A DNA stretch of 64,000 bases. It comes from Hanleya hanleyi. Its lineage: Eukaryota; Mollusca; Polyplacophora; Lepidopleurida; Hanleyidae. Position numbers and translations under genes: made by a program. Each line of letters begins with the position of its first letter. Positions within the stretch are counted from its first letter, which is position 1. Positions 13,859 through 56,329 of this stretch are shown here, piece after piece. The notes under the pieces were generated by a model that had not been told where the DNA came from, searched no databases, and saw only the letters and a program-made list of their open reading frames with translations. The stretch is from assembly GCA_036873755.1 (NCBI GenBank), contig JAVTVY010006821.1, positions 248,001 to 312,000 on the forward strand, written 5' to 3'.

Positions 13859-13908
13859 CGACGGTCGGTGACGGTATGGGTTATTCATCACGCGTCATTT
13901 CGTCGACC

Positions 13909-29880: not shown

Positions 29881-32635
29881 CATTATCATAAATCATTTCA
29901 TGGTTCATCCCTTTAACAAAATATTAATTGAGCACGTCTGAAATGTTTTGATAGCCTGCTGTTCAAATTCGGCAGAAGACTAGATTGATCCATTTCCTGT
30001 CGACAATCTGCCTTTCCTTTAAATAGCAGAATAACTCTGATTTTGGGCACAGTTGTACTTGGTCTCCTGGACATAATCAATTATACCTGCTCATTGAGAA
30101 TTTACAAATATATACCAAATCGACGCTTCAATGGATAACGCTTGAAGCTGCGATCTATTCAGCTCTCATCAGATGGACTTCACTTCGATATTCCGATTGC
30201 CAAGAAAGAAGCTGATTCATGTATGTCGGGCAGTCAGGTTAGCCCGCCATCATCAGAACCCCCAGTCTTCAACACCTGGTCCTGGATGTTAACTCACGAA
30301 GACATTTCTGCCTCGAGAAATAAGGAAGCAACGAGTCCATCGAACATTGCGAGCCCGTGGGGGATTCTGGACACAGGACGACGATACAGACACCAGACAT
30401 TCTGTTTGCGTTTTCTGCAAGAAGAATGGAGAAACCCTTTCTGTCTACGGTGGGCACGTGCTGAGAGATTCCATGGGAACAGTTACCTGTCCTGTCCTCC
30501 GTCGGTACACTTGTCCTATCTGTGGGTCAACCGGGGACAAGGCGCACACCGTCAAGTATTGTCCATACAAACCCAACAGTCTGCCTTGAGGTAAACCCAA
30601 CTCTTCTGTGAATTCTATATACACCTGGGCAGTTATTACAAAGCATGAAAACACACTTCACCATTACCTTAAATATCAAGTTATTTCTGTTTATAATAAA
30701 TTCACAAGCATACAGTTTCAAAATACAATTGTCTTTTTTGACGTTTCAAATTCCCTTTTTCATACGGTATCATTTCTATTTGAATTACAGATGGCCATCC
30801 CGATAGCTCGATGTCCGGCCATGTCGACCGTCCAGTGTATTACCTTCCATTCAGCCCCGACATATTGATAGAAAATCAGAGCATGTTGGAGCCCAAGTAG
30901 AAGAAGATATCCGGTGATACTGGAAGAGCGGAAATCTGGACTAGCAGACCCAGGAATCAACTGCTTCTCCAATTATCGTGTTCGACATTGACTCACAAAT
31001 GATCGGGAGGAAATATATCTGATAATGATAGATCCGAACACTCGCTGACAGCTCAAGATATTAAATGTAGGCACATGCTAGATATAGCTATGTTTATAAT
31101 GTGTCGACCGTCGTTGTTGAGAACGCAAATTGTATTCTGGGACGAGTTCTTTTCATCAGTCATGGCTAATCACGTGGACGTCGCTGTTGTTCTAAAATTC
31201 TGGGTTGTCATAGTCATAAATTTTTGATGTCACTGAGAATAAATCTCAACGTCGACAACATGCGGAACCCACTAAAACCTAGCCATGATATTATCCTATA
31301 ATAACACAACTGAGCATTTAATGCGGAATATTCTTACCACGAACATCGGCCTTTGGGGGAACAGGCGTCATTTAATGCATTTTAACCTACAACCATAGCA
31401 TCCGGGAATTATTGGTCTGCTTTCAGTAAAGTAAGTTTGTTAAATAAAATCAGGTCTTTGAACAAAGCCATGGATAGGGGAAATAGTTAGTTCCTTTTAA
31501 CCTACAAATGCTAAAAATGTGTAATAAAGAAATTCTGGTCTGAGATGCCCATCTTTGAAGCTCATTTGAAATACCACTTTTTTAGAAATTAGTATAAATT
31601 AAAATCAAATTATTTCTAATTGATTTGATGAACATCTTTTTGTGATTGAATATGTTAATCAAGACATAGAGTGGACCTCGTCTCTCCATTCCTCAACCAT
31701 TATTGTTTTTAATTATATGGATAGATAGAATGAAAACATGATCTTATCTTTATACCATCACTATTCTTTCTACTTAAAGTTATCGATACACCGTTTCTTA
31801 CTTTTGTCTGGCGAGAATAATGCATAGACGCCATGGTGTCCACTTTTTGTATGTCCATCATAATTGCACCCACATGCATTTCGCTTTTGATGGTATCTTC
31901 ATGACCAACCAGAAATGCACTATTGTATATTCTGTTTTGGATTCACATTTGGCAATTTACTTATCAGCCTGGTAGAATCTGATATTATATCGATAGAAAT
32001 TATATCGTATCAGCAATCGAACATAAATTTTACAAGAGGATACTCGTAATGAGATTATTCAGTGATGACGTCATTGTATCGTCGTTAAGCCCTATTAGAA
32101 ACACGAATTTATTTACATTGAGTTTTCGCGGAAAAGATCGACTTTATCCAGAGAGTTAGTTGGTTCGTTAGGAAAGGCGATTTATTACTGTTATCATTGT
32201 TCGGCAAATATATAGCCATACGGATTTTTAATATATAGTGGTTTATGGCCTTCGAGATTATATGTTAATGCCAACGCGGATACAAATCACTAAGCGAAAA
32301 AAAATTATGCCGCGCACAATATTTGACCTGAGAACGTATAAGAATTTAATAGAATGACAATATTTTCAGATAAGGCATATCGATAATCAACTCTACAATC
32401 GAATTCTTTGCATCACTTATTTCAAATTCATGGTAAACTATATGTACGTAATAAAACTTGGATATAAAATTCGCATGGTTCCTCGGGACAGCTTGGAATA
32501 AGCCTGTGGTCTTTTCAGTATAGTGTTAATGAGCTTGAACGATTAAAGGTCGTCGAAGGTGTGAAATATTTGAGACAATTAGGTACAAGTACTTTTTCAT
32601 TTATTATATCAGACGGGGGTAAGTCTATACAAAAC
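29880..32635. repeat. Segmental duplication unit D
   Basis: 2,755-bp tandem copy of unit C, with high identity across both the nanos-like head and the tail. Confidence 0.9.
30130..30589 (+). pseudogene. nanos: Nanos-like copy 2 (nonsense plus two frameshifts)
   Basis: The start ATG at 30130 is followed by TGA at codon 5 (a CGA-to-TGA change relative to copies 1 and 3). One base is missing near 30197 and two near 30357, which together restore the original frame. The zinc-finger part itself is intact, with all eight ligands: CVFC, H, C and the second box CPIC, H, C. It shares with copy 1 the 111-base deletion between the N-terminal part and the fingers. The FNTWSWML motif is kept. The early stop makes a normal protein impossible. 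Confidence 0.85.
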
Positions 32636-33966
32636 ATTATCATAAATCATTTCATGGTTCATCCCTTTAACAAAATATTAATTGAGCACGTCTGAAATGT
32701 TTTGATAGCCTGCTGTTCAAATTCTGCAGAAGACTAGATTGATCCATTTCCTGTCGACAATCTGCCTTTCATTTAAATAGCAGAATAACTCTGATTTTGG
32801 GCACAGTTGTACTTGGTCTCCTGGACATAATCAATTATACCTGCTCATTGAGAATTTACAAATATACACCAAATCGACGCTTCAATGGATAACGCTCGAA
32901 GCTACGATCTATTCAGCTCTCATCAGATGGACTTCACTTCGATATTCCGATTTGCCAAGAAAGAAGCTGATTCATGTATGTCGGGCAGTCAGGTTAGCCC
33001 GCCATCATCAGAACCCCCAGTCTTCAACACCTGGTCCTGGATGTTAACTGACGAAGACATTTCTGCCTCGAGAAATAAGGAAGCAAAGGGTCCATCGAAC
33101 ATTGCGAGCCCGTATGGGGATTCTGGGCACAGGACGACGATACAGACACCAGACGTTCCCGAGAGTCCGTACGACCGGCCTACCAATCCGATGGATGGAG
33201 CCACCAGACATACTCGGTTGTCGGACATTCTCCACTGCCAGTCCGCCCGGAAGAAATGCGCGCACATTCTGTTTGCGTTTTCTGCAAGAAGAATGGAGAA
33301 ACCCTGTCCATCTACGGTGGGCACGTGCTGAGAGATTCCACGGGAACAGTTACCTGTCCTGTCCTCCGTCGGTACACTTGTCCTATCTGTGAGTCAACCG
33401 GGGACAAGGCGCACACCGTCAAGTATTGTCCATACAAACCCAACAGTCTGCCTTGAGGTAAACCCAACTCTTCTGTGAATTCTATATACACCTGGGCAGT
33501 TATTACAAAGCATGAAAACACACTTCACCATTACCTTAAATTTCAAGTTATTTCTGTTTATAATAAATTCACAAGCATGCAGTTTCAAAATACAATTGTC
33601 TTTTTTGACGTTTCAAATTCCCTTTTTAATACGGTATCATTTCTATTTGAATTACAGATGGCCATCCCGATAGCTCGATGTCCGGCCATGTCGACCGTCC
33701 TGTGTGTTACCTTCCATTCAGCCCCGACATATTGATAGAAAATCAGAGCATGTTGGAGCCCAAGTAGAAGATATCCGGTGATACTGGAAGAGCGGAAATC
33801 TGGACTAGCAGACCCAGGAATCAACTGTTTCTCCAATTATCGTGTTCGACATTGACTCACAAATGATCGGGAGGAAATAGATCTGATAATGATAGATCCG
33901 AACACTCGCTGACAGCTCAAGATATTAAATGTAGGCACATGCTACACATAGCTATGTTTATAATGT
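32635..33966. repeat. Segmental duplication unit E (head only)
   Basis: Third nanos-bearing head. Similarity to C and D stops after GCTATGTTTATAATGTGT at about 33966, so the shared tail is absent and this is the right end of the array. Confidence 0.9.
32885..33456 (+). pseudogene. nanos: Nanos-like copy 3 (one-base frameshift in a G run)
   Basis: The N-terminal frame is open from 32885 to 33331 and the zinc-finger frame from before 33256 to the stop at 33454-33456. The two are offset by one base. The G run at 33116-33119 has four G where copy 1 has five; that one-base difference is the whole offset, and the second frame is free of stops from that point. This copy alone retains the 111-base linker (33155-33265). 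All eight zinc ligands are present; one Gly between the second-box Cys pair and the His is Glu. If the missing G is a sequencing error, this is a complete nanos gene of about 190 codons; if real, it is a recent pseudogene. Confidence 0.8.
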
Positions 33967-42457: not shown

Positions 42458-42463
42458 AGCTGT
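42458..42463. repeat. Polinton target-site duplication, left
   Basis: AGCTGT, immediately before the TIR; repeated at 56324-56329. Six-base duplications are diagnostic of Maverick/Polinton integration. Confidence 0.95.
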
Positions 42464-42935
42464 AGTAGAATGTAATAGGGGGGTTCGAGGACAGGGAAGC
42501 CGGGAAGCCGATGACGTCATAAGTAGGTCGAGGTGACGTCATGAATAGGTCGAAGCCGTGCGGTGTTCGTCTATCGATAGTGTCACGAACATAGCCCAAG
42601 GGGGTTGTAGGTCAACGTCTGTTCACTGGTAAAAAATAAATTAAAAAACAATTAAAAAAAGTAGGTCAATATACGAGGACAGTTCTGGGACAAAAAACAA
42701 ATTAAAAACAATTATAAACGTGTTGCGAGGTTGTAGGTCTGTTCAGCGGACCGTGTCTATAGCTTTTTTGCGGTATGGTCTATTTATGGAGCCATACTTA
42801 TAGCCCGAAGGTGCGGTGTTCATCGTCTATATATAGAGCTATAACCCGGAGGTGCGGTGTTCACCGAACCGTGACTATAGCGTGTGAAGTGTTCGCGGTG
42901 TTCTATATCCGTTCAGCGGTCCGTGTTTATAATTA
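42464..42935 (+). repeat. Polinton left terminal inverted repeat
   Basis: 42464-42629 matches the reverse complement of the right end with few differences. Matching resumes at about 42860-42935 after about 230 bases of extra, repetitive sequence not present on the right. It includes TGACGTCA twice. Confidence 0.9.
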
Positions 42936-43143
42936 GCGATGGAGCGTGACTAATGAAAGCCCGCGGCTAATTCGAGAAGTTTGCGTATAGAACACGGTGA
43001 TTACGTTCCGCACCACTCGACGTCTCATCTTACACATCTGGTAATCAATCAAACTAAGAATATACTCGTAGTCTATAGTTAGAAAAAAAATATATATATA
43101 AGGACAATTCTGAAACAGGGAAGCCGGGAAGCCGATGAAGTAG

Positions 43144-43557
43144 ATCGGTGGAGCGTGACTAATGAAAGCAGGCGGCGTTCCATATCTGTTCAGCGGACCG
43201 TGTCTATAGCCGGAGGACATATATGGCATTGTTTGACTATTATAAAACGACACTACGTCTCGCACGAATGATTTTAATTATTACTGTCACTCATCTTCCA
43301 CACTGGTCATAAATTCCTCGCGGAGTTCTCGAATCATCTATTTGCCCTTATCGATGGAGCGTGACTAATGAAAGCAGGCGGCGTTCCATATCTGTTCAGC
43401 GGACCGTGTCTATAGCCGGAGGACATATATGGCATTGTTTGAGTCTATTATAAAACGACACTACGTCTCGCACGAATGATTTTAATTATTACTGTCACTC
43501 ATCTTCCACACTGGTGATAAATTCCTCGCGGTGTTCTCGAATCATCTATTTGCCCTT
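43144..43557. repeat. Subterminal tandem duplication, about 205 bp x2
   Basis: A unit starting ATCGRTGGAGCGTGACTAAT recurs at 43144 and 43350. Each carries a TIR-derived GTTCAGCGGACCGTGTCTAT segment and a block ending CATCTATTTGCCCTT. A further partial copy begins near 42938. Confidence 0.9.
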
Positions 43558-43559
43558 TG

Positions 43560-44410
43560 AAGGTGACATCAGCTCTATTTTTAGACTCAACTAATGGTAT
43601 ATTTAAGGAGCTTGATAACACCTTTCTCTTAATATAAAATAGCTTGTGACAACGTCGAAAAGACATACGTACATTAAGAGGATGAACTGAGGACTACCTT
43701 CAAACGATTATTATGGGTAAGCTTTTCAGCACATTTGGTTTTCCTCATAGGTTAAGAGCCTATTGCTAAACTTATGCTATGTGGAGTTTTTCCTTACATG
43801 GGTAGAGGACATTTCCTTATTTACATAGGTAGAGTATCCAAACGGACATCCTCCGCGGCTTATCCGTAAAGTTAATTCAATTTAAGGTGAACCGCTTTGT
43901 TGACTAAGATCTCTCACTCACCGGAACCGTGAAAAAGGGTTCAGTGTGGATACCAATTTCGACATACCCCCTGACGTCATAGCGAAGTCAGCCAACTAGG
44001 AGCGCGATTTATAACCTTATGATGCTTTTGATACTCAGTCATACGAGACGACGAATGATTTATAACATATCTAGGTGACATACCATACTAGTCTTCCAGA
44101 TATTCACATCATTATTATCAAGCGGACGATATATATATATGTAAGTCCAAACACGCTTTAATCATAATCAGGACGTGTATGACACCATTCTCAATGCGAC
44201 CTAAGCAGTCAAGCGAATTACGACTAGATATATATTGCAAAGGTATGTAAGGTATAATGAGTGTTACAAGGATACACTTCGTCACGCACGAGTGGTTGTA
44301 GCCCGAGGGCAACTGCGGCGATGTTTGATATATACTTCGTCACGCACGATTGGTTGGTTCACTGAGGCGGCTATGTTTTCCCGTAAACTTCATTAAGATA
44401 TACTCGATAA
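43560..44410. other. Polinton left non-coding region
   Basis: No long ORF. There is a TATA-like TATATTTAAG at about 43598 and, at 43713, ATGG followed by GTAAGC, which could be a first-exon start with a splice donor. No matching downstream exon was found; read through without splicing it gives only an 18-codon ORF starting MGKLFS. Confidence 0.35.
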
Positions 44411-44417
44411 ATAGACA

Positions 44418-45250
44418 GAATCCGTAATTATACGCCTAAAGCCTAGAAATTTCATTTCAGACCAAAACAATTTTTCGATTTTTTTTTTCTTTTTGACTCG
44501 ATTTTCGTCGAATTTTCCATAAATTACCCATGGCGATATCTCGGGAACTAAGAATGATAGCGACTCGCGGCTTACGGCGTCGTATTCCTCTCGTATAGAT
44601 GCGCGATAAATGTCCTATGCAATTCTATCGCCCGACGGTAACTTTCGCCGCAATTAGACGATAATGGGTGTCACGTGATTCGGGGATTTCTCGAGAAATA
44701 AGCGACATACGGGCTCATGGTTTGCAGCGTTGTATTCCTCGTATAGGGGTCTACCGTAAAGGTCCTATACGAACTTATCGTATCTCCGTAAGTTTCGCCG
44801 CTATTCGGCGTCGAAATATGCTCTGTTTACTAGAATCTGTAAATGTACGCCTAAAACCTAGAAATTTCGTTTTCGACCAAAAAAAAATTCCGTTTTTTTT
44901 TTATTTTTTTTTTTTTTTTTGGACGACCGATTTTCGTCGAATTTTCCATAAATTACCCATGGCGATATCTCGGGAAGTAAGACGCATACAGACTCGCGGC
45001 TTACGGCGTTGTATTCCTCTCGTATAGATGCGCGATAAAGGTCCTATGCAATCCTATCGCCCGGCGGTAACTGTCGCCGCAATTATGCGATAATGGGTGC
45101 CACGTGATTCGCCGATTTCTCGAGAAATAAGCGACATACGTGCACGCGGTTTGTGGCGTTGTATGTCGAGATCTACCGTAAAGATCCTATAAGAATTTAT
45201 CGTATCTCCGTAAGTTTCGCCGCTATTCGGCGTCGAAATACGCTCTGTTT
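44418..45250. repeat. 415-bp direct duplication with internal half-repeats
   Basis: 44418-44832 and 44833-45250 are homologous (GAATCYGTAA, CCTAGAAATTTC, a poly-T tract, TTTTCGTCGAATTTTCCATA, and so on). Each half again contains two diverged units of about 165 bp marked by GATATCTCGGGAA / GATTTCTCGAGAA and TTTCGCCGC, so the block is an ancestral unit repeated four times. It lies directly upstream of the polymerase gene's first exon. Confidence 0.85.
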
Positions 45251-45412
45251 ACTTACTTATCCCGATATGGCTTCTATAGAATTTATACCATAAGAATGTC
45301 GACGAGAAAAATAGGACGACCGGAAGTGACATCTATAAAACAGAAAAGCCTCCATAAAGGCGGTCATTTGACAGTCATACGTCATTATCACCTCCATATT
45401 TCAGCGAACAAC

Positions 45413-45785
45413 ATGGATGATTCCAGTCTCGAATCCTTTACCAATGTTGAACATCTTAACGCTTGGGCTGAAAGATATGGACGTTCGAACGATGATGCCG
45501 TCAACCTTCGACGAATTCAACTGCTGGCGGAATCACTCGGTCGTCTCGTCCCCAACACAACGGCCACCAGAATCCAGTGCGATCTTTGCACTAAAACATT
45601 TACCGGTAGGAGGAACATGCTACAGCATAAACGTAGGAACCACGGCAGTCATTCACTGTTGTGCACTGTATGCTGTAAAACGTTCTCCCGACAGGATAGA
45701 CTAGAAGAACACCAGCATGTTCATTCGAGGAAACGCCATGCGGAAACAACCAGCCATGACGGGGTGAAATGTCCGAGGAAAAACG
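45413..45785 (+). CDS. Polymerase gene exon 1: two C2H2 zinc fingers
   Basis: The ATG at 45413 opens MDDSSLESFTNVEHL; the upstream in-frame ATG at 45296 is possible but adds a basic stretch of low quality. Two C2H2 fingers follow: CDLCTKTFTGRRNMLQHKRR with a further H, and CTVCCKTFSRQDRLEEHQHV with a further H. The exon ends at a GTAAG donor at 45786. The ATPase gene in the same element starts with a very similar finger, suggesting exchange or shared targeting. If read through without splicing, the frame ends at 45826. Confidence 0.7.
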
Positions 45786-46012
45786 GTAAGTGTAATATTC
45801 ATTCTTACAGGAAGTTACTTCGGTAGCATAAGTTCCATGCACATTCAGGGTCCAAGGTCGTAAGAAGGAGCACTATAAGCATCTATACCACCAGACACTC
45901 CGAATAATTAATCTACTCGCAGCGCCTAAAACAACACTGTACATACTATATGTCGTTAGCGGTCATCAGTTATACGTTTCACCACTCTATGGTATATATT
46001 TATTTTAATCAG

Positions 46013-46078
46013 ATCAACTTGCGGTGGCATCTTGTTCGTCGTCCTGTGGTTCAGATCTCCAGCCAGCGCAAAATACAG
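46013..46078 (+). CDS. Polymerase gene exon 2 (66 bp)
   Basis: A small exon with acceptor ATTTTAATCAG before it and donor GTAACTTA after it. It is free of stops in the phase set by exon 1, and it delivers exactly the phase used by exon 3. It encodes a Ser/Cys/Gln-rich linker. The agreement of phase at both ends is the main evidence. Confidence 0.6.
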
Positions 46079-46420
46079 GTAACTTACCGGGGATACTAAC
46101 GTCTAACGATAGGGTTCATTAGCTATACCTCTCAACCCAGAGGAGAGGAGAAACTAATAGTTCTGGTCGACTAACCCACTCTCGAATTTGAACTATGATT
46201 GATGAATAAATATCGAATAGCATAACATACGAATAGCAAATATATAGCATCGCTTGAATTTTAACTATGCTCATTTCGATAATCATGGTTATATAGCATA
46301 ACTTCGAGATATGTTCACGAAGGAAACTTTACTACCTACTTCATGAAAGTAGCTCGGCGGCTTGTGGCTGATTGAACGTGACGATTATCAAATATGTAAC
46401 ATTCACAATTATATCTCCAG

Positions 46421-47145
46421 GTCAACCCGCTCGACTGGCCAAATGTAACTGGTGCGGGAGATTCAAGTGTTTGTTACCCGGAAAACAGTTCTGCGAGGAG
46501 TGTTCTAGCCGAGGTCGTGAGTGTTCTGCCTGCCATCGACCACTACCCGAGCGATTTTACACTACTCACCCACAGCATTGCGACAGTTGCCACGGCAAAC
46601 AGTCGGGAGGGGCGAAATCATCGTCGTCCGCGCTGAACGGAACTCTGCACACCCACACTATTCCACCTACTAGAACGACCAGTTCAGACATTCTACATTT
46701 TTTTAATAGCAACGAAAACGCAGTTCGTCAACTGCTGACGACAACGTTAAACGAGCAACGCGGAATCAAGTGGTACGTCTCCCTACAACTCCGCCTCGCT
46801 CGAACGAACAGTGAGGGTGAGACCATTTACTCCGAACCCCTGTTCAGAAGTCTTAATTTCGTTAGCACAAACCTATCTCAGCTCGAACAGCAGCTCGCCG
46901 AGCCCTTCCAAAAAATACATTCTAGCTTCCAGGAGTATCAGCGAGAGGGAAGCGCGTGGGTCTTGGACGAAATTGTTCACCTACAGGTGCATATCGCACA
47001 ATATGTGCCCTTTCAAGGCAGTAGCTATATTCCCACACCAAAGAATCTGCGTAAAAAGATGGCGATTGTCAATCCGCAGAACACGGATCAGTTTTGCTTT
47101 CTCTGGTCAATTCTTGCGGCCTTACACCCCGCGAAGTATCACCGG
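46421..47145 (+). CDS. Polymerase gene exon 3, Cys-cluster and N-terminal domain
   Basis: Begins after the ATATCTCCAG acceptor. A treble CxxC cluster comes first (CNWC, CEEC, CSAC, CDSC; 46434-46600), probably two structural zinc sites. A Ser/Thr linker follows, then the conserved N-terminal part of Polinton polymerases, with SAWVLDEIVHLQVHIAQY, GSSYIPTPKNL and [13 protein letters not shown]. The frame is lost at about 47142, right after this last block, and resumes in the next frame. Confidence 0.7.
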
Positions 47146-49487
47146 ATCGGATTCAACGTTATAAACCGTACTTGAACGAGTTAAACATCGACGGAATCGA
47201 TTTTCCTATCCCTTTATCTCAAATATCGAAGTTCGAAGCTCTTAACGATATTTCCGTGAGCGTGTTCGGTTATGACGAAGGGGTTTTCCCCCTGCATATA
47301 AGCGAACAAAAGTCCGACAGACACGTCGATCTTTTACTCATCTCTAAAGATGAGAAGAGACATTTCTGCTTGATCAAGAACATGAGCCGATTGTTGGGGG
47401 ATCGTACAAAACATCGTTGTGCTCAATTCTACTGTAATTATTGTTTGCACGGGTTTTCTACTCGACAGTTGCTAAACGATCACATTCCTCACTGTTCTCG
47501 ACACGGGCCGCAGCGAATCAGACTCCCGGAAACCCCCGAAGAACAGTGGTTGGAATTCAAAAATATCAAGAAACAGTTACGCGTTCCTTTCGTCATTTAC
47601 GCCGATTTCGAGTGTTTTACGCGTAAAATCCACTCCGAATCCGGGGCTGCCACCAAATACGAGCGTCACGAATCGTCAGGGTTTTGTTATACCGTAGTGA
47701 GTACAATGTCTGAACACAGTAAGCCCGCTGTGGTATATAGGGGTCCCGATGTCGTAGAAACTTTTCTGGAAAAACTCGTAGAAGAAGATAAACGAATCTG
47801 CGATATATTAGAGTGTATCAAACCTATGCAGATAACCCGGGAGGAGGAAAACTCCTTTAAAGCGGCGACGCATTGTCATATCTGCGACAAAGAACTAGGC
47901 GCCGACAGGGTACGCGACCATTGTCATTTGACGGGGAAATACAGGGGTCCCGCTCACAATCACTGCAACTTACAGTATAGGTTCAGGAGGTCTACCAAGC
48001 GAGAAAAGCGCCAGTTCTTTATACCCGTCGTTTTGCATAACACTAAGGGCTATGACGGTCATCTCATCTGTAGCGTTATGGGAAAATTCAAGGGTCTGAA
48101 AATAACGTGCATCCCGAATAACATGCAGAAATACATCTCCTTCTCTCTGGGTAATTTAAGGTTCCTCGATTCCCTACAGTTTCTCAATGCCTCCCTCGAA
48201 ACTCTAGTCGACAATATGTCTAAGGAAGGCGCTGAAAAATTTCACCTGCTCGGGCAACATTTCCCGAACCCTAACCACCGGCGTAAAATGTTGAGAAAGG
48301 GAGTCTACCCGTACGGCTATATGTCCGCCGAAAGTAAATTTTCGGAACGCCAACTTTTACAAGCGTTTTACAACGATCTCCGCGAAGAGCCTATTTCCGA
48401 CCAAGACTATGCCCACGCGCAGTCGGTATGGTCGGAGTTTGGAATTCAAACTCTAGGGGATTACCACGACCTCTACCTGAAATCCGATGTCCTACTACTA
48501 GCCGATGTATTCGAAAATTTTCGCAACATTTGCATGAACTACTATCATCTCGACCCGGCTCACTACTATACCTCACCCAGTCTGTCATGGGACGCCATGT
48601 TGAAAATGACCGGTGTGCGTCTACAATTGCTGGGCGATATAGATATGCACCTAATGATAGAACGGGGTATCCGCGGAGGTATTTCAATGATCTCTAACAT
48701 GTATAGTAAGGCGAACAACCCGAACATGGTCGATTATAATGTCGACTGTCCCACTAAGGACATCACTTATCTGGACGCTAATAACCTATACGGGTGGGCT
48801 ATGTCGCAACCTTTACCCCTACGGGACTTCGCGTGGATGACCGACGAACAGATCCAGTCGCTGGACGCGACGGAGATAGGGGAAATTGAAGATGATACCG
48901 AAACGGGTTATATTTTCGAAGTCGACTTACAATATCCCTCGTCACTTCACGAGGCGCATAGCGACTATCCTTTCTGTCCGGAACGAATGACGGTGACGGA
49001 TGACATGCTCTCGCCTCATTCAATCGGATTGAAGGAAGAGCTAGAGATTAAAGGCAAACCCACGGAAAAACTAGTTCCCAACCTTCGCGACAAATCGAAC
49101 TATGTGATACACTACCGCGATTTGAAGTTCTACCTGCAACAGGGGATGCTTTTGACTCGTATCCAGCGCGGGATAGAGTTCACGCAGTCTACATGGCTGC
49201 AGCCGTATATCGCATTCAACACGGACAAACGTAAGGCCGTTAGGAATGACTTCGAGAAGGACTTTTTTAAACTGATGAACAACTCCGTGTTCGGGAAAAC
49301 GATGGAGAATCTTAGGAAACGTACCCGGATAGAGCTCGTCAACTCCAAACGGAGACTTCAGAGGATGGTCGCCAAGCCCTCTTTTCAGGCTTTCAAAATT
49401 TTTAACGAGGATTTAGTCGGCGTCAATCTAAAGAAAATAAAATTTTATTTTTTAACAGATCCATCTACGCCGGCTTCGCAATTCTAG
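47094..49487 (+). CDS. Protein-primed DNA polymerase B, exonuclease and palm
   Basis: Longest frame of the gene. Visible in order (codon numbers in this frame): C2HC finger 114-134; ExoI DFE 171-173; an HNH-like zinc knuckle CHIC...[11 protein letters not shown] 261-284, typical of this polymerase group; Exo[11 protein letters not shown] 315-323; Exo[21 protein letters not shown] 457-474; motif [13 protein letters not shown] 559-570; motif [15 protein letters not shown] 726-739. Both the 3'-5' exonuclease and polymerase metal ligands seen here are intact. The first about 15 codons are out-of-frame overlap; the true frame joins at about 47142. It stops early at 49485-49487 through a frameshift at about 49463, before motif C. 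Confidence 0.93.
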
Positions 49488-50052
49488 ACCTCTCGAAGCT
49501 ACTGATATACGACTTCCACTATAATGAAATGAAGCGAAAATATGGCCAAAAAGCGAAGCTGCTATTCTCTGACACGGATAGTTTGTGTTATGAAATCGAG
49601 ACGGAAGATTTGTACGGCGACATGGCGCGAATCTGGCTTTGTTCGACACCAGCAACTACCCGAAAGACCACCACCTCTATAGCGCTACCAATGCCAAAGT
49701 ACTTGGCAAGATGAAAGATAAATGCGGCGGTACCCCTATAGAGGAGTTTGTGGGTCTTAGGCCTAAGTTGTACAGCATTCTTTTCGGAGGAGAAGAGAAG
49801 AAAACGGCGAAGGTAATAGCTAAATACGCTATAAAGAAAAAACTTCGACATATCATGTATAAAGACTGTTTATCTCAACACAAAATTGTGAAAACGACGA
49901 TGAGCCAAATTCGCAGTATTGACCACCAGTTATATAGTCATACCGTTGAGAAAGTAGCGTTATCCGCCTTCGACGATAAACGGTATGTACTAGATGACGG
50001 TATCAATACTGTGGCGCACGGCTTCGTCGGATCTCTGACTACATCATACTGA
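49464..50052 (+). CDS. DNA polymerase B C-terminal part (motif C), frameshifted
   Basis: Downstream of the second frameshift one frame gives [12 protein letters not shown] and then motif C SDTDS (catalytic DTD at about 49571-49579). A third frameshift at about 49628 moves the rest to another frame, which runs to the TGA at 50050-50052 and holds [30 protein letters not shown] and [12 protein letters not shown]. These are the usual order and content of the C-terminal end of Polinton polymerases. All three metal-binding Asp of the polymerase (motifs A and C) are therefore still encoded, but not in one frame. Confidence 0.85.
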
Positions 50053-50087
50053 AAACAAATGATGACTAATTTTACAATCCATGTATG

Positions 50088-50099
50088 TTTATTAATAAA
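50088..50099. terminator. Bidirectional poly(A) signal palindrome
   Basis: TTTATTAATAAA is a perfect 12-base palindrome. It supplies AATAAA on the plus strand for the polymerase gene (stop at 50052) and AATAAA on the minus strand for the ATPase gene (stop at 50111-50113). The two genes converge with only 58 bases between stops. Confidence 0.7.
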
Positions 50100-50110
50100 A
50101 TGCGTGGAAT

Positions 50111-51313
50111 TTATTCATCGTCTTCGTAAAGTTTATCGAACAAGTGTTCCTTCATTTTAACGCTTTGTTTCATCGCTTCCTCATAGCTCGCGTTGTAGGA
50201 CTTCTGAAGGTCATCGCAGGTCTTCATGATTTCCTCGTGAATTAGGTCGCTCTCCAGAGCTTTTATACCCAAGATCACATCGAGATACATCCGGCGCAGC
50301 GTCTTCATCATGTGAGGCATGTATTCAGTTATTGCCCGGACCTCAGCCTCCTGCTTCGTACAACTATTCGTTATGAACTCTCTAGTCTTCATTTTGATAT
50401 CATCGTTGAATTCCATACGCGATGCTCTACCGAACATGGTTTTCCACGTGTCGTGTTTCACGGTATGGGACGCTTTATAGGCATCCGATTTCACACGACT
50501 CCCTTCTCCCGTTTGTTCCCTATACCAAGAAGGTATTGCCTTTGTATATAGACCTTGTCCGGTCTGTGTGGGTGCATCCAACCTCAGTCTTAGCCTTTGG
50601 CTTTGCGGTGTAGTCGACTTCAAATCGATTATTAGGTAACCGTAAGGCTTGGTGGTGGCTTCTTCGTACTTTTTCGTGAAATAGTCTATGTTTTGAGGAT
50701 ACATGCGTCTTCCGAAGAGTTGGACCTGATGACGATCGATGGGATTGTTGAAAAGCACGAAGTATTGGCAGTTCAAGGTGATGTCTCTGGACGCCTTACC
50801 TTGGGGGAAGAGATTCTGCGTCAAGTAAATTACGGACAGATTCCGATGGTGAGAGCCTTTGGTAAACAGATCCGCGACTTGTCCGTCTGATTTAGCTTGA
50901 CTCATCATATCGTCGAGCACCACAATATTGATCTGCGCAGGGTCGAAGTAATAGGTCTCCCCGATATCGTGCGGGATTCCGGGAACGAAGCTCACATTCT
51001 TTAATCGTGTATTCTCGTAGGCGGGCTGCCATTGACCGTAACACCAGACAATACGCGTGGGAGAAGGCTGAATGTCGGTCCCTTCCAAGCGTTTCAACAC
51101 CCATGACGTCTTTCCACACCCTGTCGGACCGCTAACAGTCATGGTAAAGGGATGTTGAAAGGCTGCATTCGCAGTCTTCGTTCCGGATACCTGTTCATCC
51201 GTAATGACATCGCGTATCATTGTAAGCCGTCCCCCGTGATGTGACTCGATATGTTTGCGCAGGTTTTCGATTCTCGTAAACGTCTTAGCGCATAAGCTAC
51301 ACGCATAAGTCAT
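50111..51313 (-). CDS. Polinton FtsK/HerA-type packaging ATPase with N-terminal C2H2 finger
   Basis: From the ATG at 51313 the protein has 400 residues. It opens with a C2H2 finger (CSLCAKTFTRIENLRKHIES plus H), then Walker A GPTGCGKTS, Walker B INIVVLDDMM and a sensor-like VIYLTQNLF, the pattern of A32-type genome-packaging ATPases of Polintons and related viruses. C-terminal third is a helical, charged region. The frame is open upstream to 51409, but a minus-strand TATA box (CTATATAAG at 51391-51398) lies there, so the transcript must start downstream and 51313 is the right start. The gene is intact. Its finger resembles those of polymerase exon 1. Confidence 0.92.
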   Translation of the reverse strand: MTYACSLCAKTFTRIENLRKHIESHHGGRLTMIRDVITDEQVSGTKTANAAFQHPFTMTVSGPTGCGKTSWVLKRLEGTDIQPSPTRIVWCYGQWQPAYENTRLKNVSFVPGIPHDIGETYYFDPAQINIVVLDDMMSQAKSDGQVADLFTKGSHHRNLSVIYLTQNLFPQGKASRDITLNCQYFVLFNNPIDRHQVQLFGRRMYPQNIDYFTKKYEEATTKPYGYLIIDLKSTTPQSQRLRLRLDAPTQTGQGLYTKAIPSWYREQTGEGSRVKSDAYKASHTVKHDTWKTMFGRASRMEFNDDIKMKTREFITNSCTKQEAEVRAITEYMPHMMKTLRRMYLDVILGIKALESDLIHEEIMKTCDDLQKSYNASYEEAMKQSVKMKEHLFDKLYEDDE

Positions 51314-51390
51314 GATATACTCTAGGAAAATAGACGTTAATATAACAAAAGCTTCGTGTAGAGTGCGCTCACCGCGCTGAAACTTGCACT

Positions 51391-51398
51391 TATATAGG
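51391..51398 (-). promoter_or_regulatory. TATA box of the ATPase gene
   Basis: CTATATAAG on the minus strand, about 80 bases upstream of the ATG at 51313; fixes the start choice. Confidence 0.6.
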
Positions 51399-51435
51399 AG
51401 ATATCCCAACGCTGATTCAATACATCCGGCTACAG

Positions 51436-51466
51436 GGTGCAGGCTGCAGGCTGCAGGCTGCAGGGT
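51436..51466. repeat. GGCTGCA heptamer repeat
   Basis: About four tandem GGCTGCA/GGGTGCA units between the ATPase promoter and the integrase 3' end. Confidence 0.8.
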
Positions 51467-51641
51467 GTCGAGCTTAGATCGACTCGATATCTTCTACCGG
51501 CACCCAACTGGCGAATTTAATGGGCCAGCCCGTGTATTTAACTAATTTCTCAACTCTGCCTCTCCTCCGTCGTGTTTTGAGAACCTTTTCAATACGCCAT
51601 AACGCGTCAGGGTCTTTCCTCACTCGTTGTAGTTCCTGCTG

Positions 51642-51860
51642 TTAAAATGTTCCCTGTACCCCGTCGTCCATAAAATCCTTGAGTTCGTATATCGCGGTGC
51701 CTCTTCTCCGGAATCGTCGGAAAATTTTGAATAGTTCCTCCGTCCATTTGGCTTGATAGTCTCTTTGGAAGGCGTACCTCACGTGAGAGATTCTCACGGT
51801 ATCGCCGATGTTTAATTTAAACGGTTGTTTACGGCCTTTTATCGCCGTGTCGACATACAT
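51642..51860 (-). CDS. Integrase C-terminal SH3-like segment
   Basis: Contains FKLNIGDTVRISHVRYAFQR and WTEELFKIFRR, the DNA-binding barrel region that follows the core in retroviral-like and Polinton integrases. It ends at the in-frame TAA 51642-51644 where related proteins continue into the chromo domain. Confidence 0.75.
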   Translation of the reverse strand: MYVDTAIKGRKQPFKLNIGDTVRISHVRYAFQRDYQAKWTEELFKIFRRFRRRGTAIYELKDFMDDGVQGTF

Positions 51861-51944
51861 TTCTCTCCAGAGGAGAGCCTCATTCCCTTCATTAACATCG
51901 GAAGGACTTTGTTGCGCAAAGATGCGTGCGGTCGTTGCTTGTAA

Positions 51945-52568
51945 TTACAACAGGTCTTGTAAGACGTCTAAATAACGGTAGGTCTGCTTATGGGTGAAAT
52001 ATCTATACATACTATTTTTCATCGTCCTTATAACTCTCTCCGCGTAATTAGCCTTCTTTTCGTTATGGGTGACGTAGAAATGAATTTCTTTCTTCTTCAA
52101 ATAAGCTTTCACCCATCGGTTGTTGTACTCGCTTCCTTTGTCGAAGCGGAGATACTTGGGTTGTCTCCCTTCAATCAGGATTTGATCGAGTCCCGAGATT
52201 ATAGCCTTATGCTGTTTATTGGGAAGAGGGATAATCCACAGAAATCGCGAGAAAACGTCTATGACGAAGAGGAGAAATTGCACGCCATCGTTGTACTCGG
52301 ATACATTGGACACATCGGCTAGATCTGTATCCCAAAGATCGTCTATGCCCGCAGTGACGACCCTGCTTCTCTTAAAGGTATAACGAACTGGCTTTTGTAA
52401 ACTATAAGCGTCCTGGTCGCTCAACCACTGCGGTAGCTCTTTACGCGCTACATTATATCCATCGGGCTTTAATAAGGCGTGTAATTTAGAAGGCCCGGTG
52501 AAGCTGATAGGGTTTTTCGGGTCGAAATAGGTTCGCGACAAGTACGTTTTCCACCCTTTCCCATCCAT
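51945..52568 (-). CDS. Integrase catalytic core (rve/DDE)
   Basis: 207 codons from the ATG at 52568. An N-terminal YFDPKNPISFTGPSKLH block, typical of Polinton integrases, precedes the core. Catalytic residues: Asp82 in WDTDLADVS, Asp143 in LRFDKGSEYNN and Glu177 in KKANYAERVIRT (33 residues between the last two). Integrases of this family insert the element with a 6-bp stagger, in agreement with the AGCTGT duplication. The frame ends prematurely at 51945. Confidence 0.9.
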   Translation of the reverse strand: MDGKGWKTYLSRTYFDPKNPISFTGPSKLHALLKPDGYNVARKELPQWLSDQDAYSLQKPVRYTFKRSRVVTAGIDDLWDTDLADVSNVSEYNDGVQFLLFVIDVFSRFLWIIPLPNKQHKAIISGLDQILIEGRQPKYLRFDKGSEYNNRWVKAYLKKKEIHFYVTHNEKKANYAERVIRTMKNSMYRYFTHKQTYRYLDVLQDLL

Positions 52569-52609
52569 ATCTACGAACTCGAATGATGAAAACGGTGACG
52601 CACACCTCT

Positions 52610-53584
52610 TTAAATAAATAAGAAAACAAACAGTGTGTTGAAGTGTTGAAAGTTTAGGGGGTTCTTTTTATAATCCCCGGCGACGGCTTTGGACGATACG
52701 AATCCTATCACCAGTCTGCTGGGGTAGACGGATAAAAACATATTATCCCAGCGGAAGAGGGTCTGTCCCGTGGCTAAGGAAGCCATTTTGGTCTCCGTTC
52801 TCACGTACGGATATTTGGCCGATGTATTTTCCAAGGTTTTGGCGTGTCCCAAAATCACGCCGGGGTTTACGCGAACTTTCTCGACTTTCAGGCTGATATC
52901 TTGTATCACCAGTTTATACGCCGGATTTTCCTCACCCGACATCATGATGAACTGCGGTGTGGAGCGATGCATTTTGATGTATACGTCCACGTTATTCAGC
53001 AAGTAGCGCTGTTGTTTGAAAACATCTTGCATGAAGTTTCCTTCCATTTCGAATACATTACTCTCAGCGATGAATTTCCTTCTCTGCGTAAATCCGGCAT
53101 TTTGACCCGATGCGGCATCCGCGGTATCCAAATTAATACCCTCGTCGGCTACATACAGTTGGGGCACTAGCTGAGTGGTTTTAGCGTCTTCACCGAAATT
53201 CATTAGCGTTTGAATGTAGGCTTTATAGGGGTAACTGTTGTCCATGACCGTCATAAGCTTACCCTGCATGGAGACGTCTATCTGAGACCACATAGTTTGA
53301 AGGAGTAAATTGATAGGGCCGCATTTTTCGTCCTTGATCAAAGGGGTGCCATCTCTGCGGGTTATTTTAGCCTTAACGTAGAGTCTGGTGGATTTCAAAT
53401 CGACGTAATCCGAGCCTTGACCGGATATCAGGAATTCGACGGGTGCATCGACCGAGATTTGAGAAGACGGGCGAACGTCGATAACATAGCGACTTTCAAC
53501 CGCTGTTTGCGTAGGGGGTAATGAGAACAACGATAATTCGCTAGGTTGACCATCGGTGAATCCTTTGTCTGTGAGGAGTGCCAT
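52610..53584 (-). CDS. Polinton major capsid protein (double jelly roll), 3' truncated
   Basis: From the ATG at 53584, 324 residues. The sequence has the features I know from Polinton major capsid proteins (often annotated in invertebrates as F54H12.2-like): ESRYVIDVRPSSQIS, GSDYVDLKSTRLYVKAKI, MWSQIDVSMQGKL, YPYKAYIQTLMNFG, and RWDNMFLSVYPSRLVIG followed by NPLNFQHFN. After NPLNFQHFN the reading departs into seven unrelated hydrophobic residues and a stop. From family knowledge roughly another 100 or more residues are expected. The integrase start codon lies only 42 bases further on, so a deletion has probably removed the capsid 3' end. The gene starts one base after the previous stop (TAACATG). 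Confidence 0.9.
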   Translation of the reverse strand: MALLTDKGFTDGQPSELSLFSLPPTQTAVESRYVIDVRPSSQISVDAPVEFLISGQGSDYVDLKSTRLYVKAKITRRDGTPLIKDEKCGPINLLLQTMWSQIDVSMQGKLMTVMDNSYPYKAYIQTLMNFGEDAKTTQLVPQLYVADEGINLDTADAASGQNAGFTQRRKFIAESNVFEMEGNFMQDVFKQQRYLLNNVDVYIKMHRSTPQFIMMSGEENPAYKLVIQDISLKVEKVRVNPGVILGHAKTLENTSAKYPYVRTETKMASLATGQTLFRWDNMFLSVYPSRLVIGFVSSKAVAGDYKKNPLNFQHFNTLFVFLFI

Positions 53585-53585
53585 G

Positions 53586-53957
53586 TTATAACTCGAAGAG
53601 ATGCGATCTTTTGGTCCGCGCTCTCCGTTTATCGGCGGGTGAACTGACGGTAGGAAGAGAACGCTTCCTATTTATGGGTTCCTGTTGACGCGTTCTCGAG
53701 ACTTCAGACTTGGCTTGTTCGACCACTTGTTGAGAGGGGGCCGTAAGCTGAATAGCCGGCGTCTTGGATTTCTTCTCGCTGACGTTTTTAGAATGAGGGT
53801 CGACGGGAATAATGTAGGATTCACCCGTCTTACCGCCGAGTCCTCCACCTTTCTGCTTCTTAAAATATGTCGAGGGTTTATGGACAGACTTTGCCTCGTT
53901 CCGATAAAATCTGATCCATTTATTCACATCGGGGATGTACAACGGTCTCCCGGTCAT
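53586..53957 (-). CDS. Small basic Polinton protein with GG sites (unknown)
   Basis: 123 residues, starting MTGRPLYIPDVNKWIRFY. It is Lys/Arg-rich, has a GGGLGGKTG segment at residues 37-45 and a basic C terminus (KRRARTKRS). It lies between the minor and major capsid genes; its ATG overlaps the upstream TGA as ATGA. A small basic protein with GG pairs next to capsid genes suggests a virion core or membrane-lytic precursor cleaved by a protease, as in adenoviruses, but no protease is visible in this element, so this is an inference. Confidence 0.7.
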   Translation of the reverse strand: MTGRPLYIPDVNKWIRFYRNEAKSVHKPSTYFKKQKGGGLGGKTGESYIIPVDPHSKNVSEKKSKTPAIQLTAPSQQVVEQAKSEVSRTRQQEPINRKRSLPTVSSPADKRRARTKRSHLFEL

Positions 53958-54373
53958 AGCTGTTTCACGTGGAGCGTTACGATGACGGATTCGGTGAGAA
54001 ATGTCGCCGGTTCACCTTGTTCGTCGGTTATATCGATTTCTAGATAGCGTACGTCGCTTAAAATGATGGGTAGGTAATACGGCGTGGGGTATATGCTAGA
54101 TGCCGGTTTTTTCTGGAGTCCGGAGGCCTCGACGTAGCGTAGTAGAGGTACTTTCGTCTCGCCTACGAAGGAATCTCCGCATATATTACAACACAGGCGT
54201 AGAAGAGATCGCGATTTAACCTGCGGTTGTCTTTGGATGAATATTTCTGCTAAGGCTACGACCCAAGACTCGTCGAAATGGATGCTATTCAAGCTGACGC
54301 GAAATTTGTAAGGTCGATTCTCGGGGAAAAGCGTCTTGTAGTCCTCGCTGTTTACGACGATGTACTTATCCAT
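53954..54373 (-). CDS. Polinton minor capsid (penton-like) protein
   Basis: 139 residues from the ATG at 54373. It has the pattern of Polinton minor capsid proteins with a single jelly roll: F...NRPYKFRVSLNSIHFD, WVVALAEIFI, a CCNICGDSFVG block, LLRYVEASG, and a C-terminal IDITDEQGEPATFL then SVIVTLHVK strand. These proteins occupy the particle vertices. The open frame extends five codons upstream through a non-ATG codon; the ATG at 54373 follows a minus-strand TATA-like CTATATAAC at about 54421-54429. The stop overlaps the next gene (ATGA). Confidence 0.8.
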   Translation of the reverse strand: MDKYIVVNSEDYKTLFPENRPYKFRVSLNSIHFDESWVVALAEIFIQRQPQVKSRSLLRLCCNICGDSFVGETKVPLLRYVEASGLQKKPASSIYPTPYYLPIILSDVRYLEIDITDEQGEPATFLTESVIVTLHVKQL

Positions 54374-54400
54374 TCGACTGATTCGCAATCAACTGTCTCC

Positions 54401-54604
54401 TTATAGGCGTTCGTATAGCGTTATATAGTAATCCCAAATTTCAACTTTCAACGTATCGGAAACATCCTGACACACTGAATATGTATAGATACGTAGTAAA
54501 ATTAGGCGGCCTCTATTTACTACGCCGTCTTCAAACATGCTATGGATGATAGATTTGTAGGCGTGTAAAGAGGTGACGGCATTCACCATTTGATTCCAAT
54601 CCAT
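54401..54604 (-). CDS. Small Polinton protein, unknown (67 aa)
   Basis: 67 residues, MDWNQMVNAVTSLHAYKS onward, mostly helical in appearance with many aromatic residues. No domain recognised. It begins two bases after the preceding gene's stop and ends 27 bases before the minor capsid gene, so it belongs to the compact late-type block. Confidence 0.5.
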   Translation of the reverse strand: MDWNQMVNAVTSLHAYKSIIHSMFEDGVVNRGRLILLRIYTYSVCQDVSDTLKVEIWDYYITLYERL

Positions 54605-54606
54605 CG

Positions 54607-55080
54607 TTAAATTTTATTTTCTAGCAGGTTATGAATAGCTGTATCGATGAGACGGGTTGGAGCTTTGAGTAATGTCCACTGCATGTAGTTCAAGACCATG
54701 CCCTTTATAGTGGCGTTGTCGTTGATAAAATAACGCAGATCAACCATCAATAACTTGGCGTAGATGCAAACAGTAACCCGGAAATGTTCGTCGATAATAA
54801 CTTGTTGCATCGGTGTACATAGCGTTCTGTTGGGAATGACGGTTATATCGCCCGATGGTATTTCGAAAACACGCGGTGTATCTTTGCCGGTGTGGTACGC
54901 GCATGAAGGACAGGGTGTTCGTTTCGTGGTCAATACGATGAGTGGTATAATTAGGAGCAATATAGCTCCTATAGAAAGAACTTTAAGTATGACGAGCTTT
55001 CTCTGGTATTGATCCATACCGCTCGATGTCCGACTTCGGAATAAGCGGAAAGGTTTTAAAGGCATATTTATAAATATCAT
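54607..55080 (-). CDS. Polinton membrane-anchored protein, unknown
   Basis: Up to 157 residues. Starts are possible at 55080, 55065 (MPLKPFRLF) or 55017 (MDQYQRKL). A basic N-terminal tail precedes a single strong membrane segment (VLSIGAILLLIIPLIVL, about residues 33-50 from the first Met). A CPSC pair and further Cys (CTP, CIY) follow in the presumably luminal or external part. I know no function; type II membrane topology and a structural or entry role would be speculation. Confidence 0.55.
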   Translation of the reverse strand: MIFINMPLKPFRLFRSRTSSGMDQYQRKLVILKVLSIGAILLLIIPLIVLTTKRTPCPSCAYHTGKDTPRVFEIPSGDITVIPNRTLCTPMQQVIIDEHFRVTVCIYAKLLMVDLRYFINDNATIKGMVLNYMQWTLLKAPTRLIDTAIHNLLENKI

Positions 55081-55108
55081 AGTTCTTAAATTTTGGTTGA
55101 CCTCATTC

Positions 55109-55687
55109 TTACATCACCGCGTTTAAGATACTGTATAGACGGATTTTAAAGGCAGGGGTCTTGAGGCTGGCGATATTCTCTGGTGATAGATGAGTATTCA
55201 GGATTTCCGGAGAATGTTTATTGTGGGCGTTGAGACGATGCTTAGTCTCTTCGACAATATCGCATTCCTTTAGCGTGCTGAAGGCTGTGATGAAGTGCAT
55301 GTCAACATGTTGACAGCTTTCGAGAGCTAGACAGGGATGAACGCTGCTACCGGTGGCGCACCCACAACATGTTTCCGCGATCAGATTATTAATTCTGTCA
55401 ACCATGTAACGCGCGTAGACTTCCAGCAGAGCATCTTCAATGATATCCGGTGTGAGCGTTGCAGTATGTGGAGTGGGTGTAGCTGAGGCGCCTAGTGGTG
55501 TAACAGCTTCCTCGTTGAGTGTCTTCTCAGATTCGGGGTATATTAAAGTGGCTAAGGTATTGTTTCCCGTCTTAAGCAAAGATTCCACGAATGCGTCAAA
55601 TGCTTTAGGACCTCGTCTAGGTAGTACGTTTAACAAATGACGGACTCGCGCAGTTCTCGTCTTCTCCGCCATGATGTCTTCATACAT
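55109..55687 (-). CDS. CARD-containing Polinton accessory protein (open part)
   Basis: 192 codons from the ATG at 55687. Residues 10-50 match the second half of a caspase recruitment domain (helices 3-6): AEKTRTARVRHLLNVLPRRG and PKAFDAFVESLLKTGNNTL, very like CARDs of caspase-2/CRADD-type adaptors. A Pro/Thr linker follows, then a C-terminal region with VDRINNLIAETCCGCATG, HPCLALESC and a helical tail; a Cys/His block of this kind recurs in small proteins of related midsize viruses as far as I recall. In the same frame upstream the sequence continues to an ATG at 55804, with one in-frame TAA (55703-55705) between. A decoy or inhibitor of host apoptosis or inflammatory signalling is the natural hypothesis. 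Confidence 0.75.
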   Translation of the reverse strand: MYEDIMAEKTRTARVRHLLNVLPRRGPKAFDAFVESLLKTGNNTLATLIYPESEKTLNEEAVTPLGASATPTPHTATLTPDIIEDALLEVYARYMVDRINNLIAETCCGCATGSSVHPCLALESCQHVDMHFITAFSTLKECDIVEETKHRLNAHNKHSPEILNTHLSPENIASLKTPAFKIRLYSILNAVM

Positions 55688-55804
55688 TTCCGCTGATAAT
55701 ACTTAACTTTCTCGCAATATCGCGCATATGCTGCATATGCCTATCATCTCCTCGGTGAGAATTGTAAAATTTAAGCGAATAGTTTCCCGGTTTGTTTCTT
55801 CCAT
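55688..55804 (-). pseudogene. 5' part of the CARD gene with in-frame stop
   Basis: From an ATG at 55804, 33 codons are open in the same frame as the 55687 ORF, then TAA at 55703-55705, then five more sense codons to the Met at 55687. The upstream codons begin MEETNRETIRLNFTILTEEM, the length and pattern of CARD helix 1, and the codons after the stop read LSAEMYEDI, a good match to CARD helix 3. A minus-strand TATA (TCTATATAG at 55869-55877) lies about 65 bases upstream of 55804. The gene therefore probably started at 55804 and acquired a nonsense mutation, or it is read through. Confidence 0.65.
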
Positions 55805-55868
55805 GTCGTTATCCTTTGAAGTCAGTGGGATGTTCGAAAATATTGTAGGTCTCACCAACGTTTCTGTA

Positions 55869-55877
55869 CTATATAGA
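55869..55877 (-). promoter_or_regulatory. TATA box of the CARD gene
   Basis: TCTATATAG on the minus strand, about 65 bases before the ATG at 55804. It supports 55804 as the ancestral start. Confidence 0.5.
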
Positions 55878-56089
55878 GCGTCTTTCTTAGGCGGAGTGTT
55901 GTGTATAGTTCGCTAGCCCGCCTCCGAATGAAGCGATCGTTTATCGCGGGATAATATATATGTGCATAATCTACGCGGTTATGCGTGAGCGGGGTGCTGT
56001 CATTAGTCAGTCCTATCCCCGCTGTGGGAATATCTCTGAATCCTCATACTTATTAAGCAGAGATCGTTGTCTCGGAGTATATACACCGC

Positions 56090-56323
56090 AAAAAGCTATA
56101 GACACGGTCCGCTGAGCGGACATAAAACACCGCAAACACCTCGGACTATTGTCGCGGTCCGGTGAACAGACGTTGACCTACAACCCCTTGGGCTATGTTC
56201 GTGACACTATCGATAGACGAACACCGCGCGACTTCGACCTATTTATGACGTCACCTCGATCTACTTATGACGTCATCGGCGTCCCGGCTTCCCTGTCCTC
56301 GAACCCCCCTATTACATTCTACT
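56090..56323 (-). repeat. Polinton right terminal inverted repeat
   Basis: Reverse complement of the left TIR, ending CATTCTACT. The inner part (GTCCGCTCAGCGGACCGTGT) also matches several internal subterminal copies near the left end. Confidence 0.93.
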
Positions 56324-56329
56324 AGCTGT
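56324..56329. repeat. Polinton target-site duplication, right
   Basis: AGCTGT, identical to 42458-42463. Confidence 0.95.

Follow-up and report, generated by a model that had tools for sequence, protein, structure and literature searches.

Animals use the caspase-recruitment domain (CARD) to trigger cell death, and CARDs bind other CARDs. Viral CARD proteins, as well as homologues of anti-apoptotic genes in adintoviruses, are already known from the sections consulted of the respective papers. Grouper iridovirus is described, in the portion of the source consulted, as having an anti-apoptotic CARD protein and, alongside it, a Bcl-like one, and its GIV-CARD inhibited apoptosis in cells (PMC4457926). 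Adintoviruses are defined, in the consulted part of a second paper, by a PolB with an OTU-like N-terminus, a hexon recognisable by BLASTp and an integrase with a C-terminal chromodomain (PMC11071296). In the literature searched, neither a Polinton with a CARD nor a CARD joined to a PC4-type domain was found described, and PMC11071308 and PMC9952930 hold no relevant mention; the founding adintovirus paper (Starrett 2021), which lies outside the literature covered, may mention related genes. A CARD gene in such an element bears on the question whether Polintons are animal viruses or were so until recently. Genes for the control of cell death make most sense for something multiplying in living cells, constraint on the codons, seen over many copies, offers a testable sign of a virus-like phase, and a combination of CARD and PC4-type domain would connect the DNA of the element with the caspase machinery.

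The window analysed here is a stretch of 64,000 nucleotides from the chiton Hanleya hanleyi (contig JAVTVY010006821.1, positions 248,001 to 312,000). A nanos gene at 27374-27835 on the plus strand (PF05741, 1.2e-22) shows that the host is an animal; two further plus-strand frames, 30142-30594 and 32885-33331, share the first part of this gene without a zinc-finger match, and the nanos frames are apparently tandem copies, some of them truncated. Further downstream, the window contains a Polinton with the following features.

42458..42463, no strand: target site duplication AGCTGT, left, flanking the element
42464..56323, no strand: Polinton element, 13,860 bp, a decayed copy, delimited by inverted ends and a 6-bp target duplication
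42464..42603, plus strand: left TIR (arms 42463-42603 and 56184-56324, 141 nt, 96% complementary)
45413..50022, plus strand: gene for a DNA polymerase B of the protein-primed type, broken (PF03175, 3e-15)
50111..51409, minus strand: packaging ATPase candidate with a C2H2-like N-terminus (Pox_A32, A32-like, 0.0028, below cut-off)
51945..52568, minus strand: integrase (PF00665, 8.7e-9, 36 bits, cut-off 32.6)
52610..53584, minus strand: major capsid candidate (by eye), apparently truncated, no family match
53586..53957, minus strand: ORF of 123 aa, no family match above cut-off
53954..54388, minus strand: minor capsid candidate (by eye), no family match
54401..54604, minus strand: ORF of 67 aa, Bcl-2-like, with a BH1-like stretch (PF00452, 1.1e-4, below cut-off)
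54607..55080, minus strand: ORF of 157 aa with a hydrophobic segment and a weakly PC4-like C-terminal part, syntenic in 19 of 19 copies
56184..56323, minus strand: right TIR, pairing with the left TIR
56324..56329, no strand: target site duplication AGCTGT, right, flanking the element

The element thus shows the hallmarks of Polintons/Mavericks, namely TIRs with a 6-bp target duplication and a family B polymerase together with a retroviral-type integrase, although the polymerase is broken: its gene lies in pieces in tblastn frames 2, 1, 3, 2 and 1, and this split over several frames indicates that the whole element copy is decayed. Among the 120 listed of 7975 matches at 0.001, the named relatives of the polymerase come from scallops, pearl oyster, oyster, abalone, sea anemone, corals and a snail, with best identities of 59-60%. 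Short repeats occur in three copies in the left terminal region (42723-43416) and in one inverted copy at the right end (56090-56135). A first-pass annotation of this DNA had placed a CARD gene inside the TIRs and next to capsid genes. The position inside the TIRs is borne out, with AGCTGT on both sides of the element, and the element ends together with the target duplication rule out that the CARD gene is flanking host DNA. The neighbouring capsid genes are candidates named by eye only; neither 52610-53584 nor 53954-54388 has an above-cut-off match in Pfam, NCBIfam or PHROG or a significant match in PDB. A protease gene was not noticed in the element.

The CARD gene occupies the minus-strand frame 55804-55109, which contains the motif LLNVLPRRGPKAFDAF as the annotation had claimed, and is made up as follows.

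55870..55875, minus strand: TATA-box-like TATATA, 71 nt upstream of the CARD-gene ATG; putative promoter, by position only
55706..55804, minus strand: opening 33 codons of the CARD gene (first CARD part), from the register test and tblastn; same frame in 19 of 19 copies
55703..55705, minus strand: in-frame TAA breaking the CARD of the window copy, absent at that codon in 19 of 19 inspected copies
55532..55702, minus strand: remainder of the CARD domain (PF00619, 9e-12, 45.3 bits)
55109..55531, minus strand: linker and Cys/His C-terminal region in the frame of the CARD gene, aligning with the Cys/His tails of family members

Reading starts at the ATG at 55804, runs for 33 codons to the TAA and is then open until the stop at 55109, which agrees with the ATG and the single TAA described before; the TATA box proposed ahead of the ATG is likewise present, as a matter of position only, as TATATA at 55875. 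The piece directly after the TAA matches positions 30-81 of the 85 of the CARD profile, with 45.3 bits versus a curated cut-off of 23.9 bits, and the ORF 55112-55687, read from the ATG at 55687, matches with an E-value of 4.2e-8 (33.5 bits). An interrupted gene predicts that CARD similarity extends upstream of this second ATG up to the TAA, and this is what was observed. The profile check that the annotation had proposed therefore came out in favour of a CARD, and neither an absence of CARD similarity nor an origin in flanking host DNA was found. The window copy has no whole six-helix CARD in a single frame, with the TAA inside it; other copies do, for example the locus L008, which covers positions 1-83 of the 85 of PF00619.

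As a control for chance, the solved CARD of RAIDD, the closest solved CARD to that of the window (6.6e-4), was compared with all 2134 stop-to-stop pieces of the window of at least 20 aa. The CARD piece ranked first at 2e-6, with the runner-up at 3.6, and the best E-value among the reversed pieces was 2.1. The upstream piece (32 or 33 codons) by itself has no Pfam or PDB match. When aligned with RAIDD residues 1-33 in the register set by the downstream piece, it outscored 98.98% of 20,000 shuffles and 99.93% of the 25,619 window stretches that are free of stops; this register was the best of 13 offsets. In addition, the upstream piece matches the CARDs of all eight sister loci L008-L015 at 36-39% (tblastn, E 2e-5 to 6e-4). 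The structure predicted for the window CARD ORF had a pLDDT of 43.6, and the model was discarded. Judged by these sequence comparisons, the CARD domain of the window gene is real. About 140 residues, including a conserved Cys/His region, lie beyond the CARD; this region (55109..55531) has no Pfam match above cut-off.

Splicing past the TAA was considered and rejected: the sole GT(A/G)AG donor-like site in 55600-55950 precedes the ATG, and no CARD-preserving intron was found on reading the window sequence. Ordinary translation of the window copy cannot yield an entire CARD, and this copy is disabled. The host genome (2.48 Gb, 52,793 contigs) was then searched for uninterrupted copies of the window gene type with CARD and Cys/His region, here called class A. 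With 150 of 3890 candidates scored, at least 27 further places match the window ORF at 91-98%, each covering 179 or more of its 192 residues, and 25 of these 27 class A places have no internal stop. In the best 19 of the 27, which were inspected, the first 33 codons invariably lie in frame, exactly one codon ahead of the remainder, and the codon that is TAA in the window is never a stop; the CARD gene is free of any stop in 17, and two have a different stop. Among the copies examined, only that of the window is interrupted at this codon. Genes joining CARD and Cys/His region without the stop, which the annotation had suggested seeking, are hence present in other copies of the same genome. Of its proposal that a captured host CARD was fused to a Cys/His region, the fusion inside a Polinton stands; capture from this particular host and a block of apoptosis or inflammasome-like signalling are hypothetical.

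The surroundings of the gene are also conserved in the 19 inspected copies, with the TM/PC4-like ORF and the Bcl-2-like ORF in 19/19 and the minor capsid candidate and the 123-aa ORF in 17/19 each; within the short stretch examined, TIR sequence of at least 90 nt is found in 10/19. In nine of the 19 class A copies an upstream frame again resembles the Cys/His region (about 28-30%), and the one such paralogue that was scanned, L046 2761-3576, combines Cys/His with a PC4 stretch (1e-4, below cut-off).

The second gene downstream of the CARD gene, the 67-aa ORF on the minus strand, matches the Bcl-2 profile at 23.1 bits, below the cut-off of 31.4, with the same score in L042. It also matches NCBIfam TIGR00865 at 0.024, and seven of eight PDB rows at E ≤10 belong to the Bcl-2 family (best 0.15). 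All 67 codons are open in 17 of the 19 copies; in one copy only the first 11 codons are on the contig. Its predicted model (pLDDT 73.7) has three helices and no match at 0.001 in BFVD or PDB by Foldseek; BAX (rank 5, E 4.1) and BCL-XL (rank 22, E 6.4) were dismissed as fold relatives, their E-values being meaningless. If real, this ORF would encode a very short relative of Bcl-2. The element CARD might alternatively promote death or an immune reaction, for instance for particle release or the exclusion of rival viruses. CARD proteins are able to activate as well as to inhibit, and Polinton-like viruses of protists have been considered as antiviral systems, in the part of the source consulted (PMC12220804). 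However, the CARD proteins of the window and of the elements at sister loci have no caspase or nucleotide-binding domain by Pfam, and a Bcl-2-like neighbour points to death control, in whichever direction; a death-promoting role is considered highly improbable.

To the wider genome, a CARD profile search was applied. At least 150 CARD matches above cut-off exist in the host genome, with about 4000 first-look candidates; all 150 scored of 4025 candidates were above cut-off, 145 of them without an internal stop, and six stop-free frames at other loci reached 61.9, 62.1, 57.6, 72.1, 45.1 and 68.4 bits against PF00619. The CARD thus seems to be widely repeated in this genome through these elements. 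Class B consists of 281-aa open frames in which the CARD (4e-20 in L008) is followed by PC4 (PF02229, 1.9e-7, 30.9 bits, cut-off 25), and a further, first PC4-like stretch matched solved PC4 at 0.02-0.04. It comprises 17 loci: L008-L015, the best eight CARD matches chosen irrespective of their neighbours, of which 8/8 have TIR sequence of the window element and 7/8 its ATPase, plus nine that were added for showing ATPase and TIR. Among the blastn matches listed (to L012), 5/5 loci have portions of the window element's left arm or left TIR region directly ahead of the CARD gene, indicating that the class B gene has a different position in the element from the class A gene. The frames of class C, 403-620 aa long, combine CARD, PC4 and a Cys/His tail. 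In three scanned frames its CARD matched at 5e-17 to 1.3e-15, and its PC4 at 5.8e-6 in L028 (26.2 bits, above the cut-off of 25) and at 1.4e-5 and 1.9e-5 in L026 and L033, just below. The PC4 cut-off was thus reached in L008 and L028 and missed in L026, L033, L046 and the window ORF 54607-55080 (0.11, 12.4 bits). The closest solved CARDs are those of RAIDD for class B (1.6e-6) and of CED-3 (1.8e-9) and caspase-9 (4.6e-8) for class C.

These fusions suggest a DNA-related task in addition, which is counted against a role as a decoy for host CARDs. The CARD might be the element's own self-assembly module, polymerising on element DNA for replication, transcription or packaging without taking part in cell death. 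PC4 is of a single-strand DNA-binding type and stands behind the CARD in classes B and C, the first PC4-like stretch of class B matches solved PC4 as well, and the paralogue upstream of the window gene type carries a PC4 stretch, below cut-off, with its Cys/His region. Yet the class A protein of the window has no PC4 part, a Bcl-2-like ORF lies nearby and the CARDs are closest to those of death pathways; we regard such a module as possible, on the doubtful side.

Not every CARD match of the genome has the setting of the window element. Of 20 stretches of 7.5 kb taken from CARD matches, nine contain the window element's ATPase and TIR sequence, one (L035) contains its TM/PC4-like and capsid-candidate genes, and ten lack all of its genes other than the CARD. 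Two of these ten were extended by 4 kb each way: L028 showed an integrase (37% identity, 1e-45) and a piece of ATPase (2e-7, L058), placing it in or beside a second, distant element lineage; L026, extended likewise, showed no integrase and no ATPase. Some CARD matches of the profile search may be host genes. RING-finger frames lie beside class C CARD genes at L026 6058-6864 (minus strand, PF13920, 9.6e-8) and L033 878-1627 (plus strand, 1.2e-6) and are possibly further element genes. Two-lobed PC4-like frames, alike by eye and with no Pfam match at 1, occur in the window at 13765-14304 (plus strand) and close to class C loci at L056 3209-3988 (plus strand) and L058 1639-2358 (minus strand); they might indicate that the window contains the remnant of a second element.

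Beyond this genome, a protein search with the 192-aa CARD ORF gave no relative at 1e-3, and one with residues 55-192 none at 10. Scans of viral contigs with the CARD gene or other element genes gave no CARD relative; five pattern matches there proved on reading not to be CARDs. Two viral contigs with distant PolB relatives, L006 and L007, show nothing that matches the CARD ORF at an E-value of 0.1 or below, and the 10 ORFs scanned of the 23 listed there contain no CARD family. The CARD family is consequently shown in one genome only. These two contigs carry a GIY-YIG nuclease frame (L006 2359-2859, plus strand, PF01541, 3.5e-7) and a phospholipase A2-like frame (L007 4031-4471, plus strand, PF08398, 1.1e-14), respectively.

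Codon constraint was compared between the classes. For 13 class A copies (13 of 20 loci; three were left out for indels or frame ends and four for a differing anchor motif), dN/dS of the gene was 0.40 (0.42 when the window copy is excluded) and that of its CARD part 0.31 (0.34 on the same exclusion); for 10 class B copies (10 of 18 loci; three had shorter frames and five were not found via the motif) gene and CARD part gave 0.30 and 0.24, all values being computed without a tree, lowered by the choice of copies by protein score and raised by decay after insertion. A dN/dS of about 0.3 is moderate, and the values point to a protein that was in use while the elements multiplied. A captured CARD gene that was merely multiplied along with the elements, without being needed, would fit the broken CARD and polymerase of the window and the other stop in two of the 19 sister copies, but position, length and frame are kept in 19/19 copies, the CARD part has a dN/dS of 0.24-0.34 and CARD genes occur in three architectures, which makes a mere passenger quite improbable.

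Taken together, these data suggest that the elements interfere with, or borrow, the host cell-death machinery. The best explanation, to which we give about even credence, is that the element-borne CARD acts as a decoy or cap restraining host CARD-caspase signalling. It is favoured because the domain is a CARD by profile (9e-12) with uninterrupted, syntenic copies and a CARD part at dN/dS 0.24-0.34, because the closest solved CARDs are those of RAIDD, CED-3 and caspase-9 and a Bcl-2-like ORF adjoins in 19/19 copies, and because the anti-apoptotic CARD and Bcl-like proteins of grouper iridovirus, as given in the consulted part of that report, provide a precedent (PMC4457926). The below-cut-off Bcl-2-like match, the moderate and downward-biased dN/dS and the restriction of the family to one genome weaken it. 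The locus is a decayed copy of a high-copy animal Polinton with the CARD gene in its right arm. Under the decoy reading, uninterrupted elements would produce a CARD protein of about 231 codons, with CARD and Cys/His region, from their own promoter just inside the terminal repeat. By binding host CARDs, of either the initiator-caspase or the adaptor type, this CARD would serve as a decoy or cap, the death platform would fail to assemble, and time would be gained for replication; the small Bcl-2-like protein might act one step earlier on the same pathway. An element making particles in living cells would gain from such a delay. Expression, CARD-CARD binding and inhibition of death by the element CARD are what we infer here. 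Owing to the PC4 fusions, the self-assembly scaffold is the main rival of the decoy, and the two can be combined: in a modular family of CARD, PC4-type and Cys/His parts, element DNA might nucleate CARD assemblies that sequester host CARD proteins. This combination is tentative and rather unlikely; if true, DNA binding, the replication compartment and death control would meet in one protein, a parasite's DNA-triggered CARD platform.

Compared with known systems, the element CARDs are closest by sequence to those of RAIDD, CED-3 and caspase-9, but these belong to host proteins that carry a death or protease domain; by Pfam, the element proteins have neither. The Burro giant LTR retrotransposons of planarians are likewise mobile elements with apoptosis-type domains (BIR, BCL2-like), but are LTR retrotransposons and have no CARD in the text examined (PMC6431247). 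Adintoviruses are likewise animal Polinton-type viruses with homologues of anti-apoptotic genes, and the main text of the paper, in the version consulted, does not contain the words CARD or caspase (PMC11071296). The CARD-only proteins of ranaviruses and iridoviruses (GIV-CARD 027L and FV3 064R) are likewise CARD genes of DNA viruses, according to the sections consulted (PMC4457926). In the same sections, GIV-CARD is a CARD-only protein of 91 aa from a large DNA virus, with no other domain (PMC4457926), whereas the proteins described here have a Cys/His or PC4 extension beyond their CARD and are encoded by Polintons.
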